A stretch of DNA of 44,510 nucleotides from Chloroflexota bacterium. Its GTDB lineage: Archaea; Iainarchaeota; Iainarchaeia; Iainarchaeales; GCA-2688035. Each line of letters begins with the position of its first letter. The first letter of the stretch is position 1. Positions 26,597 through 38,046 of this stretch are shown here, piece after piece. A program made the position numbers and the translations under genes. The notes under the pieces were generated by a model. The model saw only the letters and a program-made list of their open reading frames with translations. It did no database searches and had not been told where the DNA came from. Location: assembly GCA_017610335.1 (NCBI GenBank), contig JAFCCG010000017.1, positions 1 through 44,510 of the forward strand, written 5' to 3'.

Positions 26597-26607
26597 GGCA
26601 ATAAAAA

Positions 26608-26632
26608 CCTGGGTTCAAATCCCAGTCGGGGC
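26608..26632 (+). other. tRNA 3'-end copy 1 (T-arm and acceptor)
   Basis: Contains a perfect T-arm CTGGG-TTCAAAT-CCCAG followed by TCGGGGC and A. No acceptor 5' strand (GCCCCGA) or anticodon arm exists upstream, where the FTR gene ends at 26596. It is the longest of five related copies bounding accessory genes up to 29485. Confidence 0.8.
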
Positions 26633-26634
26633 AT

Positions 26635-26708
26635 GGCATATTGAGCCCAAGCGAAATATGCCCGATTATATTTGTAATTTTAGTAAAGCTTTTGCCAACA
26701 GGCAAAAG
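26635..26708. repeat. Hairpin unit of array 1
   Basis: Hairpin 2 in reverse orientation (GGCATATT / AATATGCC, 26635-26642 with 26655-26662, loop GAGCCCAAGCGA), then hairpin 3 (CTTTTGCC / GGCAAAAG, 26689-26708, followed by T5). It sits between tRNA-end copies 1 and 2. Confidence 0.75.
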
Positions 26709-26712
26709 GTTT

Positions 26713-26731
26713 TTCAATCCCAGTCGGGGCA
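26713..26731 (+). other. tRNA 3'-end copy 2
   Basis: TTCAATCCCAGTCGGGGCA, matching copy 1 from the T-loop onward with one base missing in the loop. It directly follows hairpin 3, as at 41-82. Confidence 0.75.
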
Positions 26732-26734
26732 AAC

Positions 26735-26751
26735 CCAACCTATTTCGGATA
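26735..26751. repeat. Inverted repeat, left arm
   Basis: CCAACCTATTTCGGATA, perfectly complementary to 27368-27384. The pair brackets the PH-like gene just inside tRNA-end copies 2 and 3. Confidence 0.85.
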
Positions 26752-26801
26752 ACCGCTAATGTCTTCTCTTGAGCGTTATAAATAAGTTTTAAATAAGGAG
26801 T

Positions 26802-27314
26802 ATATTTAAAATAAATTGTATAAAAGGCTTAACTGATGAAGTTTGTATTGAATATCTTAAAAAATTCAAAAAAGATGGCGAAGCTATAGAAAATTATGCG
26901 TTTGCATTATGTGAACCCAGTTGGAAAGATCTAACCAAGAAAACTCTTATACCAAATATAGTAGCAAGCACAGCCGCAGGTCCTGTTGCTGGAGGCGCTA
27001 CAACAGTAACGCTTCTTTATCAAAATATGATAAACTCAATGTATATTGTTTCTGCAACAAAAAAAGGCCTCCTTATGGTAAGAACCAATGCACTCAATGA
27101 GCCCATTGAGTCTGTTTTTATTCCCTTTAAAGAAATAAAATCTTTTAAAGTAAAAAAAGGATTTTTGAGAATAGTAATAGATATATTTACTAAAAAAAGT
27201 GAAAAGCCATTAACAATGAGGTTTAATACTTTTATCCTGCCAATAAAAAAACAAAAACAAAATACTGAACAAATAATAAAGCTACTTGAATCTAATGCTC
27301 TAAAAAGAGATTAA
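26802..27314 (+). CDS. Orphan membrane-associated PH-like protein, start unclear
   Basis: A frame of 171 codons without ATG, GTG or TTG in its first 75 codons; the first ATG is at 27027. The upstream part is clearly protein-like (TDEVCIEYLKKFKKDGEAIE, then a Gly/Ala-rich hydrophobic stretch ASTAAGPVAGGATTVTLLYQ). The C-terminal 90 residues look like a bacterial PH-like beta domain (YIVSATKKGLLMVRTNAL...ESVFIPFKEIKSFKVKKGFL). AAGGAG at 26796-26801 precedes ATA/ATT codons. Either a rare start codon is used or the 5' end was lost. Function unknown. Confidence 0.6.
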   Translation: MFKINCIKGLTDEVCIEYLKKFKKDGEAIENYAFALCEPSWKDLTKKTLIPNIVASTAAGPVAGGATTVTLLYQNMINSMYIVSATKKGLLMVRTNALNEPIESVFIPFKEIKSFKVKKGFLRIVIDIFTKKSEKPLTMRFNTFILPIKKQKQNTEQIIKLLESNALKRD

Positions 27315-27367
27315 ATTGGTTTTAGTTAAGAGTGTATGATTAACAGCAGAGCTTAAAAAGATAGGTA

Positions 27368-27384
27368 TATCCGAAATAGGTTGG
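27368..27384. repeat. Inverted repeat, right arm
   Basis: TATCCGAAATAGGTTGG, the exact reverse complement of 26735-26751, 617 bp away. Confidence 0.85.
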
Positions 27385-27391
27385 CAGCGCT

Positions 27392-27408
27392 CAGTCAGGG
27401 CAATCCCA
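27392..27408 (+). other. tRNA 3'-end copy 3 (degenerate)
   Basis: CAGTCAGGGCAATCCCA matches 26721-26737 (CAGTCGGGGCAAACCCA) at 15 of 17 positions. It is the most diverged of the five copies and separates the PH-like gene from the HTH/toxin pair. Confidence 0.5.
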
Positions 27409-27457
27409 CGTTTGGTTTAATTGAAAGACTCCTTTCAGACAATATATTTAAAAACGT

Positions 27458-27477
27458 TATATATCATTTGATATATA
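27458..27477. promoter_or_regulatory. Palindromic operator at the HTH/toxin promoter
   Basis: TATATATCATTTGATATATA is a perfect 20-bp palindrome ending one base before the GTG start. A TATA-like AATATATTTA lies at 27441-27450, so the palindrome covers the expected transcription start. A typical place for autorepression by the encoded HTH protein (inference). Confidence 0.65.
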
Positions 27478-27771
27478 GTGGTTTTTGTGCAAGCTGAAAT
27501 ACAAATCTTCAAAAAAGACGTGCTGCGCTTTCCAAGGCTAGACACAGTCTTAATGATTGAGAACGCAATAAGGAAAGCCAAATCAGATCTTACAGCAAGG
27601 CAAATTTGGATAAAACTGCCAAAAAAGGTAATGTGGCAAACCTTCATTACTACCCTGGAGTACCTAGAATACTCCGGAAAAATCCTGGTGGACAAGGACA
27701 AAACAGTTGTCTGGATTTGGAATCCGGAAGCAATAGAGGAAATCAAAAGAAAAGGGCTGATTGCAAAATGA
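27478..27771 (+). CDS. Winged-helix DNA-binding protein, likely antitoxin/regulator
   Basis: 97 aa. It contains RFPRLDTVLMIENAIRKAK, LTARQIWIKLPKKVMWQTF and TTLEYLEYSGKILVDKDKTV: a winged-helix fold with a beta wing and a C-terminal WNPEAIEEI helix. The GTG start lies immediately after the palindrome (leaderless). Its stop overlaps the ATG of the RelE-like gene (ATGA), the layout of toxin-antitoxin operons. Confidence 0.72.
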   Translation: MVFVQAEIQIFKKDVLRFPRLDTVLMIENAIRKAKSDLTARQIWIKLPKKVMWQTFITTLEYLEYSGKILVDKDKTVVWIWNPEAIEEIKRKGLIAK

Positions 27772-28124
27772 AGAAAACTGTTGAAAGAATCAAATACGTT
27801 GTCTTTGCCGAACCCACACTCAAAAAAGCCTTTGAAGAACTTGAAAAAGGAAAACACGAAGAAAAGCAATTGGCGGAATTCATTGAAAGGGCAATTGATG
27901 ACCTGAAGAAAAACCCCTTATGCGGAATTAAGGTTCCTTCAAAGCAATGACCAAAAGAATACATCAAAAAATACAAAATAGACAACCTAAGAAAATACGA
28001 CCTGCCAAACGGATGGCGGCTAATCTACACATTGAGGGGAAACCAGCTTGAAATAATCTCAATTATAATAGAATGGGTAACACACAAAGACTATGAAAGA
28101 AAATTCAAATACAAAAGAAGCTGA
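27768..28124 (+). pseudogene. RelE/ParE-like toxin with in-frame TGA
   Basis: Frame open across 119 codons except for TGA at 27948. The first 60 residues (MKKTVERIKYVVFAEPTLKK...KNPLCGIKVPSKQ) and the rest (PKEYIKKYKIDNLRKYDLPN, GWRLIYTLRGNQLEIISIII, EWVTHKDYERKFKYKRS) join as one RelE-fold mRNA-interferase-like protein. The TGA is where homologues plausibly have Trp (TGG), a one-base change. TGA is used as a normal stop elsewhere in the window, so recoding is unlikely and the toxin is probably inactive. Confidence 0.75.
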
Positions 28125-28143
28125 ACAAAACGCACACTGCAGA

Positions 28144-28189
28144 AAAACAAGCAAAGTGAACAAAACCGTTCAAATCCCAGTCGGGACAA
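28144..28189 (+). other. tRNA 3'-end copy 4 with 5' extension
   Basis: Ends TTCAAATCCCAGTCGGGACAA. It shares a 46-bp block with 29440-29485, extending upstream through an A-rich AACAAAACC segment. It marks the junction between the toxin module and the Fic module. Confidence 0.75.
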
Positions 28190-28223
28190 TCTCTGTTTTG
28201 ACACCGCCTGTTGCCAATAGTTA

Positions 28224-28271
28224 GTGGTGTTAATTTAACACCACCTTTTTTAAATTGTTTGGTGGTGTTAA
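28224..28271. promoter_or_regulatory. Triple GTGGTGTTAA operator upstream of fic
   Basis: GTGGTGTTAA at 28224-28233 and its inverse TTAACACCAC at 28235-28244 form a 21-bp palindrome. A third half-site GTGGTGTTAA lies at 28262-28271, between the TATA-like TTTTTTTAAATT and the ATG at 28277. This suggests cooperative autoregulation. Confidence 0.65.
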
Positions 28272-28276
28272 TTGTT

Positions 28277-29257
28277 ATGGCAAGCGTTATTGAGAGAAAA
28301 ATCTCTGGAAAAGCCTACTTTTACTTCGAGGAAAACGTAAAAATTGGAAAGAAACGCTGGAAGAAAGTTTCAATCTATTTGGGCAAAAGCAAGCCATCCA
28401 AAGAAAAGCTACGTTCAAAAACGAAGGAACTTGAAGAACGCTCTGAAAACGCAGTAGCTGATTATTACAAGAAAAGGCTAAACAAATTTAGGTATTCCCT
28501 GCTTTCAAGAAAAGAGTTAGCTGAAGTCGAGAGAGTTAAAGACAATTTCTTGGAACGCTTCCAAAAGCTGAGCAAAAACAAGAGAAAGGAATTTGAAAAA
28601 AGGCAGATTATTGACTTTGTTTACACCACGCTTAGGACAGAGGGCGTTGACGTCAACTTTTCTGATGTGGAAACTGCCTTCACCATCATTAGGAATAAAC
28701 GAAAAGAGTATACCTTTGATTCAAAGGTCATGGTTTCAAGCAGCATGATTACAGGATTTGATTATCTTCCAAAAATTGAAGTGAACCAAAAGGATATCCT
28801 ACGCCTGCACGGCATAGTGATGTCGTTCTTTGAGGAAAAAAGTCCGGGCCAATTAAGGGGCGACCAAAGAATAATAGCAAGATTCAACCCAAAAACGCTG
28901 AGAAGCGAGGAAATTAAATACAGGCCTCCAAGCCCAAAAAAAGTCAGAGAAGAATTTGAGAAATTTTTTAACTGGTTTGAGAAAAACCGGTTTCTTCACC
29001 CGCTTGAACTTGCAGCACTTACACACCTCAAAATATACTTAATCCACCCCTTCAAAGATGGAAACAAAAGAATGTGCAGACTGCTGTTCAACAAGATTTT
29101 GATAGATGCAGGTTATCCTGCCATCAACCCATCCAAAGACACCAAAGAATACTTTCAAGCCCTGATAAAATCAGTTGAAACAGGAAAGGAAAAGCCATTT
29201 GTAAAATTTTGCGGCCAAGCATTTGTCAGACAACTAAAGCATAGGAGATTTAAATGA
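28277..29257 (+). CDS. Fic-family protein (AMPylase-like)
   Basis: 326 aa. N-terminal half: a beta segment (GKAYFYFEENVKIGKKRWKK) and coiled helices. The Fic domain contains KDILRLHGIVMSFF, PGQLRGDQRIIARF and the catalytic motif HPFKDGNKRMCRLLF (HPFxDGNxR with K in the variable position). Fic enzymes usually transfer AMP to hydroxyls on target proteins. The ATG at 28277 follows the triple operator; upstream in-frame codons lie in the operator and are unlikely to be coding. Its stop overlaps the next ATG. Confidence 0.88.
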   Translation: MASVIERKISGKAYFYFEENVKIGKKRWKKVSIYLGKSKPSKEKLRSKTKELEERSENAVADYYKKRLNKFRYSLLSRKELAEVERVKDNFLERFQKLSKNKRKEFEKRQIIDFVYTTLRTEGVDVNFSDVETAFTIIRNKRKEYTFDSKVMVSSSMITGFDYLPKIEVNQKDILRLHGIVMSFFEEKSPGQLRGDQRIIARFNPKTLRSEEIKYRPPSPKKVREEFEKFFNWFEKNRFLHPLELAALTHLKIYLIHPFKDGNKRMCRLLFNKILIDAGYPAINPSKDTKEYFQALIKSVETGKEKPFVKFCGQAFVRQLKHRRFK

Positions 29258-29421
29258 AGGAAGAAGAAGTTAAAGAGAAAATTGGCAAAGACAAATGGAA
29301 AGAATTCATAGAATTCATAAAAGGCCAAACCGTTGGAATAAACAAGAATGGAAGCACCGACTATTACAAACAGGATGTGGAAAATTTTCTAAGGCCAAAA
29401 AGAAAAAGGTTCTTCGACTAG
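29254..29421 (+). CDS. Small acidic-N-terminal partner of Fic, 55 aa
   Basis: MKEEEVKEKIGKDKWKEFI, then GQTVGINKNGSTDYYKQDVE and NFLRPKRKRFFD. It starts by overlapping the Fic stop (ATGA), so the two are translationally coupled. Its size and position fit a Fic antitoxin, but it shows no clear inhibitory (S/T)xxxE(G/N) helix, so the role is inferred. Confidence 0.7.
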   Translation: MKEEEVKEKIGKDKWKEFIEFIKGQTVGINKNGSTDYYKQDVENFLRPKRKRFFD

Positions 29422-29439
29422 TAAGCTCAAAAAATACCA

Positions 29440-29485
29440 AAAACAAACAAATTAAACAAAACCGTTTATAGCCCAGTCGGGGCAA
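29440..29485 (+). other. tRNA 3'-end copy 5 with 5' extension
   Basis: Ends TTTATAGCCCAGTCGGGGCAA and matches 28144-28189 over 46 bp with few differences, 1,296 bp away. It closes the Fic module and is the last copy of the array. Confidence 0.75.
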
Positions 29486-37332: not shown

Positions 37333-37338
37333 TTTAAG

Positions 37339-37413
37339 CGGACCGGGTGAGATTTGAACTCACGATCACTTCCTTAGGAGGGAAGTGCCTTATCCAGACT
37401 AGGCTACCGGTCC
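37339..37413 (-). tRNA. tRNA-Arg (CCT)
   Basis: Reading the minus strand: acceptor GGACCGG / CCGGTCC, D-arm GCCT...AGGC, anticodon stem CTTCC / GGAAG with loop CTCCTAA (anticodon CCT), T-arm GTGAG-TTCAAAT-CTCAC, discriminator G. Decodes AGG. All stems pair; no intron. Confidence 0.93.
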
Positions 37414-37589: not shown

Positions 37590-37820
37590 TTACTTCAGGA
37601 ACTTTAAAACTTCTTCACTTTTCAGATTAGATTGCCTTAGAATTGACTTCATTGTACCGGTTCTAATCACCGGCTTTAGTGGAACAATTACCGTTAACTT
37701 TCTTCCGCTTGCAAATTTCCTCAGCTTTACATGGCTTCCTCTTTGCTTGACAAACTTGAAGCCAGCTTTTTCTAATGCTTTGACTACTTCTTTTCCTGAG
37801 AGAACTGGAAACTTAGGCAC
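37590..37820 (-). CDS. hicA: HicA-type mRNA interferase toxin
   Basis: 76 aa: SGKEVVKALEKAGFKFVKQR, then GSHVKLRK with the catalytic histidine, VIVPLKPVIRTGTMKSILRQ and a final EVLKFLK. Full-length HicA with a double-stranded-RNA-binding-like fold that cleaves mRNA. GTG start overlaps the end of hicB by 8 bases, the usual coupling. Confidence 0.88.
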   Translation of the reverse strand: MPKFPVLSGKEVVKALEKAGFKFVKQRGSHVKLRKFASGRKLTVIVPLKPVIRTGTMKSILRQSNLKSEEVLKFLK

Positions 37821-37968
37821 ATGCTTTCACTTCAAAAGTAGTGACAAAAGGAGCAATATCTGAAAGCTTTATGTCCTTCTCATCTTCCAAATAAAGCTCA
37901 ACTGCTTCCTTCAAATTGGCCAAAACATATTCTCCTTCTTCCTTACTAATTACAGCAGATAATCTCAA
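37813..37968 (-). CDS. hicB: HicB-like antitoxin, internally shortened
   Basis: About 51 aa from a TTG preceded by GGTGATA. LRLSAVISKEEGEYV matches the first HicB strands and LANLKEAVELYLEDE the conserved helix. The roughly 20-residue segment normally between them (containing the CPELPGC-like turn) is missing without a frameshift. It ends with IAPFVTTFEVKACA. The toxin gene is intact, so this short antitoxin must still work or the toxin is neutralised otherwise. A longer start (38022) is less likely. Confidence 0.72.
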   Translation of the reverse strand: MRLSAVISKEEGEYVLANLKEAVELYLEDEKDIKLSDIAPFVTTFEVKACA

Positions 37969-38046
37969 AATATCACCTACTATAAATGATAAATAAAGAG
38001 TATAAAAAAAGATTTGTTTCACCTAACTTTTACAAAAGAGGAGGGT

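Follow-up and report, generated by a model that had tools for sequence, protein, structure and literature searches.

Positions 26605-29484 of the stretch analysed here (the window: 44,510 nucleotides, contig C55 of assembly G000, GenBank JAFCCG010000017.1) hold a tandem array of four small units, about 0.1-1.3 kb each, delimited by five copies of the 3′ end of tRNA-Glu(CTC). The units are modular: they share end sites across different cargo, and their tRNA-derived cores fit the array in which they stand. They occur displaced to other loci, are present in some species and absent from others, and integrases lie at the same tRNA ends. We consider it likely that they are mini mobile elements without an integrase of their own, mostly carrying toxin-antitoxin cargo, that are moved in trans by tyrosine integrases targeting tRNA genes. 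The G000 assembly comprises 1.29 Mb in 95 contigs and is 87% complete; its genes, among them archaeal PolD, Cdc6 and S19e on related contigs, identify the genome as archaeal. Relatives searched were five of the same genus (G001-G005), twelve other members of the family, a little-known group of small archaea (G006-G017), and further genomes of the order.

The array and the tRNA gene from which its boundaries derive

The 13-bp core, CCCAGTCGGGGCA, starts at positions 26621, 26719, 27390 (CTCAGTCAGGGCA, two mismatches), 28176 (CCCAGTCGGGACA, one mismatch) and 29472, always on the forward strand. A 20-nt motif around it has four matches in the window at up to three mismatches and none in 100 shuffles, which bears out the sequence-only reading of five tRNA 3′-end copies bounding four intervals. 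Chance similarity, the refutation which that reading had named, does not explain the copies: the cores exceed the shuffles and recur in relatives, where cassettes differ in locus and order. The left border (26605-26633, forward strand) is a 29-nt fragment comprising the variable loop, T-arm and 3′ acceptor strand, with the core at 26621-26633, and forms an attI-like first site. An intact source tRNA had been proposed as something to look for, and it was found in four relatives of the same genus: tRNA-Glu(CTC) of G002, G003, G004 and G005 ends in AAACCTGGGTTCAAATCCCAGTCGGGGCA, 100% identical to this fragment. A tRNA-Glu search of the window itself found none. The tRNA-Glu(CTC) of G000 now ends in CCCGGTTGGGGCA and resembles the tRNA-Glu(TTC) of the same genome; the array therefore preserves the core of a gene form missing from this assembly.

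All four units read on the forward strand, with contents that agree with those first described from the sequence. The first, unit C (26634-26731), is a structured element of 98 bp that ends in the core at 26719-26731. It consists of a hairpin with the loop GAGCCCAAGCG followed by a second hairpin, CTTTTGCC-AACA-GGCAAAAG, and its stems covary: among nine aligned copies from six genomes, 19 cells changed on both sides, a level reached by 0 of 500 shuffles. Hairpins like the second, reverse-complemented, also occur inside tRNA-gene introns of the family (L080 2600-2900, L075 2527-2593). The second unit (26732-27402) carries a PH-like orphan open reading frame (ORF) of 95 amino acids (27027-27314; PF14470 at 17 bits, a weak match below the cut-off) and has a right end of type B with the degenerate core CTCAGTCAGGGCA at 27390-27402. 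Its left terminal repeat, CCAACCTATTTCGGATA (26735-26751), pairs with an inverted copy on the reverse strand at 27368-27384 over a perfect 17 bp, compared with a longest match of 13 among 20,000 random pairs.

The third unit (27403-28188) has a type A right end (28132-28175) and a core at 28176-28188. It combines a winged-helix-like ORF of 97 amino acids (27478-27771; no Pfam match), a putative antitoxin, with a RelE-like toxin gene (27768-28124) that contains an in-frame TGA at 27948-27950, also present in the G003 copy, and is probably inactive. The fourth (28189-29484; type A right end 29428-29471, core 29472-29484) encodes a Fic-domain protein of 326 amino acids (28277-29257; PF02661, 66.9 bits), whose best match in a defence library is PADLOC SoFic (E 1.6e-23), and a 55-amino-acid ORF that overlaps the Fic stop (29254-29421), matches no family and is a putative Fic partner. 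The last two tRNA-end copies had been said to share 46 bp; they are indeed similar, at 85% identity over a 47-bp alignment, but not identical. Given the degenerate core and the in-frame TGA of the RelE-like gene, the window array is probably partly decayed.

Shared end sites, related arrays and displaced cassettes

The suggestion that each cassette carries its own end sequence is supported well beyond the window. Right-end sites of about 45-75 bp are common to cassettes with different cargo. Right end A, the roughly 45-57 bp upstream of the core, occurs in Fic, ParDE, HTH/RelE and RelE2 cassettes alike, with a mean column identity of 90%, while right end B contains an inverted copy of the motif AACCTTCTATTTCGGTTAACC, of which the PH-like cassette of the window has the variant CCAACCTATTTCGGATA at both ends. 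Several cassettes have TATA-like A+T stretches directly after the core, and some of their gene pairs stand tail to tail.

Searching relatives for the motif revealed the same pattern, with differing cassettes between the copies, in a second G000 array and in several other genomes. Arrays with Glu cores were found in G000 (C71), G005 (C31 and C106), G006 (C28) and G003 (C19). That of G000 C71, between an RNase P subunit gene and S19e, consists of unit C followed by a ParDE pair; G005 C31 has eight cores, and on G005 C106 a Fic cassette comes after an intact tRNA-Glu(CTC). On G006 C28 an intact, intron-bearing tRNA-Glu(CTC) precedes unit C and other units, a partial Glu sequence in G010 is probably also an intact intron-bearing tRNA-Glu(CTC), and G002 has a single 729-bp cassette after this gene. 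In other families of the order, G038 has a 496-bp unit of two small genes between tRNA-Glu(CTC) and a perfect repeat of roughly 30 bp of its end, and G045 a Fic-like gene flanked by two similar tRNA-end copies 1140 bp apart; both are single units read from sequence alone. The contigs of some genomes end at tRNA ends (G000 C66, G012 C67 and C76). Even so, similar arrays occur in independent genomes, so chimeric assembly is an unlikely source of them.

The same cassettes recur at different places. The window's HTH/RelE cassette has a counterpart with 87% identity (L084 2557-3210) in the G003 array, which sits in the spacer between PolD DP2 and Cdc6. A RelE2 cassette is common to G003, G005 and G006 at 85-87% identity and at three unrelated loci, and the ParDE cassettes of G000 C71 and G005 C106 are 82% identical with their order relative to unit C reversed. 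Conversely, one locus may be occupied in different ways. In the DP2-Cdc6 spacer, G000 has a solo site and no cassette (AAACCTGGATTCGAACCCCCACCCAATCGGGGCATAGC), G003 carries HTH/RelE and RelE-type cassettes, G002 has a different, ParDE-like pair next to a degenerate site, and G004 lacks a site. The locus of the window array, between an FTR-like gene and NrdD, is filled in G000, has a solo site in G001 and lacks a site in G003; the RNP4-S19e locus is filled in G000 and without a site in G003. Thus the proposal of repeated insertion and exchange of toxin-antitoxin-like cassettes finds support in relatives with other loci and orders and with the locus empty, filled in two ways or lacking a site, but its restriction to one site does not hold, since the sites lie at several loci and come from two or more tRNA genes. 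In the G003 DP2-Cdc6 insertion the right, last core is the variant of the empty G000 site, CCCAATCGGGGCATAGC; the crossover should therefore lie at or before the first core bases. As to the gene beside the window array, NrdD of G003, G005 and G009 (L132, L133, L135) has intein-like interruptions at a matching position, within one long frame in G003 and G005 and in a gene split over contigs in G009; NrdD of the window has none.

With right ends and cores together forming 45-75 bp common between arrays, homologous recombination or gene conversion between dispersed short repeats could be imagined to move the genes, the tRNA ends being mere landing homology. The solo site, however, matches cassettes in the T-arm and core stretch only, and recombination through flanking homology would not enforce cores that fit the tRNA of the array, whether Glu or Arg. 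We regard this explanation as very improbable.

In a scan of 84,980 named genomes, from which records near the window may be omitted, right end A with its core was found only in G005 (JAFCBY010000016.1). The title of that record (L161) reads 'Candidatus Falkowbacteria', yet its genes are archaeal and it belongs to the genus of the window's archaeon, and the title looks wrong. In IMG/VR, neither right end A with its core nor TTCAAATCCCAGTCGGGGCA nor the motif CTTCTATTTCGGTTAACC had an exact match, and the G012 integrase described below had no relative; a viral origin was rejected on these grounds.

Arrays at tRNA-Arg(GCG) and integrases at the same tRNA ends

A second tRNA gene also founds arrays, tRNA-Arg(GCG) with the 3′ end CCCGGCGGGGGCA. 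On G005 C51, ten cores delimit nine cassettes of 504-1057 bp within 6.5 kb, with ParE-type pairs, a HicB-like gene, a methyltransferase-like protein and orphans as cargo. On G000 C88, an additional core and a tyrosine integrase follow the tRNA-Arg; next come an element of 7.7 kb that carries a terminase-like gene, then HicAB and further cassettes. The names 'HicB-like' (G005) and 'terminase-like' (G000) come from reading translations, not from a family search. Similar arrays exist in G001 and G003. A right end of at least 50 bp, R1, recurs in three species at nine boundaries that differ in cargo. Of 12 matches to its inner motif, 11 directly abut an Arg core, and the remaining one, from the DP2-Cdc6 array of G003, abuts a Glu-like core; end family and core are thus separable, as expected if an incoming cassette adopts the core of its target. 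Unit C likewise has tRNA-Arg ends in place of the Glu core where it follows tRNA-Arg genes, in G012, G017, G002 and G003. Two further features of these arrays were noted. R1 can often be translated as a short ORF (QTNQTTSNHAT.NLQPGEIPGGG) that continues across the core into the following cassette, with one copy frameshifted (L286, L287, L290), and several tRNA-Arg cassettes start with a near-inverted copy of the core (12/14) that forms a hairpin with it (L287 1105, 1757, 2697, 6240; L286 8505, 9286).

The sequence-only reading had noted no integrase and had pointed to a tyrosine recombinase as something to find. The first part is right for the window, where a PF00589 profile search gave no match, all matches in G000 lying on other contigs; elsewhere tyrosine integrases head some arrays, including the tRNA-Arg(GCG) array of G000. 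In G012, contigs C67 and C76 overlap in tRNA-Glu(CTC), and an integrase of about 415 amino acids follows directly; the bases after this tRNA, CTTAACCTTCCACTTCGGTTAACC, are the type B motif. G003 retains a 54-amino-acid remnant of this integrase after its own tRNA-Glu(CTC). Orthologues with 64-80% identity and similar motifs stand after tRNA-Arg in G074 and after tRNA-Glu(TTC) in G067 and, as a pseudogene, in G058, and more distant relatives directly follow many different tRNA genes. Integrase-bearing elements hence use the sites of the arrays themselves, tRNA-Glu(CTC) in G012 and tRNA-Arg(GCG) in G000 and G003. The terminal repeat of the PH-like cassette, CCAACCTATTTCGGATA, resembles the end of such an element, CCTTCTATTTCGGTTAACC, and among the loci examined the element-end motif, at up to three mismatches, occurs solely beside cores or integrases.

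Insertion at tRNA 3′ ends is also known from casposons. The PH-like cassette, with terminal inverted repeats of 17 bp between direct repeats, might suggest casposon-like or other transposition with target duplication at such ends. The direct repeats, which are the cores, lie 3 and 5 nt away from the inverted repeats and the flanks differ; other cassette types have no inverted repeats, the repeat motif belongs to tyrosine-integrase elements, and no Cas1 was found in the 13 family genomes searched. With neither Cas1 in these family members nor a target duplication directly beside the terminal inverted repeats, a casposon was rejected, and we give transposition of this kind almost no credence. 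The casposon family has been surveyed (PMC6563490).

The integrases also bear on the idea that the arrays are graveyards, in which ordinary integrative elements such as proviruses or integrative plasmids inserted successively at one tRNA end and eroded to their ends and a selfish gene pair. The integrase and 7.7-kb terminase-bearing element at tRNA-Arg(GCG) of G000, the truncated integrase after tRNA-Glu(CTC) of G003 and the degeneration of some units would all fit it. Nine successive units of 0.5-1.1 kb, mostly with one gene or pair and with a single right-end site across cargo, are unexpected from independent decay, however, and the same cassettes reappear at other loci. Erosion of this kind seems to us unlikely as the origin of the arrays.

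Under the preferred explanation, movement of integrase-less cassettes in trans, the tRNA-Glu(CTC) 3′-end copy at the end of each cassette would be its recombination site. Visiting integrative elements would supply a tyrosine integrase directed at the tRNA 3′ end, which would excise cassettes as circles and reinsert them in trans wherever a tRNA end, a fragment of one or an existing cassette boundary is available. With a crossover at or just before the core, the incoming cassette's own core would go to the left and that of the target would end up on the right, and selection for toxin-antitoxin, Fic and other cargo would maintain the arrays. We infer mobilization in trans from the displacement of cassettes alone.

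Several points weigh against this explanation. No excised circle or moving cassette has been observed. The 87% complete G000 assembly yielded no intact orthologue of the tRNA-Glu integrase, the nearest protein having 35% identity. Type A left ends lack the integrase motif, so a single enzyme for all cassettes is unproven, and XerA, present in most of the genomes, is a possible alternative recombinase. T-arm fragments at loci without a tRNA gene are left unexplained, and with a degenerate RelE-like toxin and one degenerate core the window copy may be a partly fixed relic. Serine recombinases were rejected as movers, none being found among 21 genomes. As a separate observation, a LAGLIDADG intein splits the XerA of G000 (C11, L166 862-3003, reverse strand) at its catalytic LRH|S motif.

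Elsewhere in the window, HicA-like and HicB-like genes recognized from translations (37590-38022, reverse strand) adjoin a tRNA-Arg(CCT) gene (37338-37413), possibly another toxin-antitoxin insertion near a tRNA gene.

Relation to integrons and other tRNA-associated elements

Integron cassettes carry toxin-antitoxin cargo, as do the units described here. As in an integron cluster, two or more cassettes have similar sites spaced by less than 4 kb, with four units in the window and nine cassettes on G005 C51. Integrons and clusters of attC sites lacking integron-integrases (CALINs), including archaeal integrons, are similar in their tandem, small, mostly single-gene cassettes and an end site common across cargo, and CALINs also in forming arrays without a linked integrase (PMC9668308). 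The known archaeal integrons rest on attC and IntI (PMC9668308). Here, in contrast, the sites are copies of tRNA 3′ ends: both attC boxes (GTTRRRY at the junction with a RYYYAAC partner) occurred at 0 of 47 boundaries in a scan for the boxes alone, which is simpler than a full attC model. Four tRNA-linked or candidate integrases scored 31.7-54.5 bits on TIGR02249, against a cut-off of 265, and are not IntI. The TATA-like stretches and tail-to-tail gene pairs are further differences from integrons. In their working the arrays are integron-like, but with neither IntI nor attC, the two defining features, membership of the integrons was rejected.

Closest in mechanism are tandem integrase-less units at tRNA or ssrA genes (PMC3146451). 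As in cis-mobilizable elements and tandem accretions, our units have direct repeats of a tRNA 3′ end and no integrase of their own, with integrase-bearing relatives at the same sites (tRNA-Glu(CTC) in G012, tRNA-Arg(GCG) in G000 and G003). The ssrA islands and cis-mobilizable elements of Dehalococcoides also form tandem units downstream of a tRNA-like gene, separated by 3′-end copies of about 20 bp; they insert in the T-loop region, and many units lack an integrase and are thought to be mobile in trans (PMC3146451). They differ in using a serine recombinase and in being multi-gene islands, whereas tyrosine integrases are found here with units mostly of 0.1-1.7 kb, at several chromosomal loci and two tRNA genes, and with conserved families of end sites. 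Integrated elements of Thaumarchaeota are archaeal, lie at tRNA genes with short att sites (median 17 bp) and are sometimes in tandem, but are multi-gene elements rather than arrays of single-gene cassettes (PMC6563490). The pdif modules of Acinetobacter plasmids are small toxin-antitoxin or resistance modules between recombination sites, shuffled by a host recombinase (e.g., PMC13141974); their Xer sites alternate in orientation, whereas the cores here are direct and tRNA-matched (the host dif site was not identified). We met no description of arrays like these in the literature searched, which is not proof of absence.

More tentatively, the arrays could represent an independent, integron-like system of gene capture in archaea, in which any tRNA 3′ end can found an array and cassettes adopt the core of the site they enter, passing between tRNA-Glu and tRNA-Arg arrays, with visiting tRNA-targeting integrases acting and no dedicated integrase kept. 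If so, archaea with reduced genomes would have a second origin of integron-like cassette capture, on another kind of site, the tRNA 3′ end, and toxin-antitoxin and Fic genes would travel as sub-kilobase units without any mobility gene. This would provide a testable account of how such genes spread without obvious vehicles, and of the high variability of tRNA ends and intergenic spacers in these genomes.

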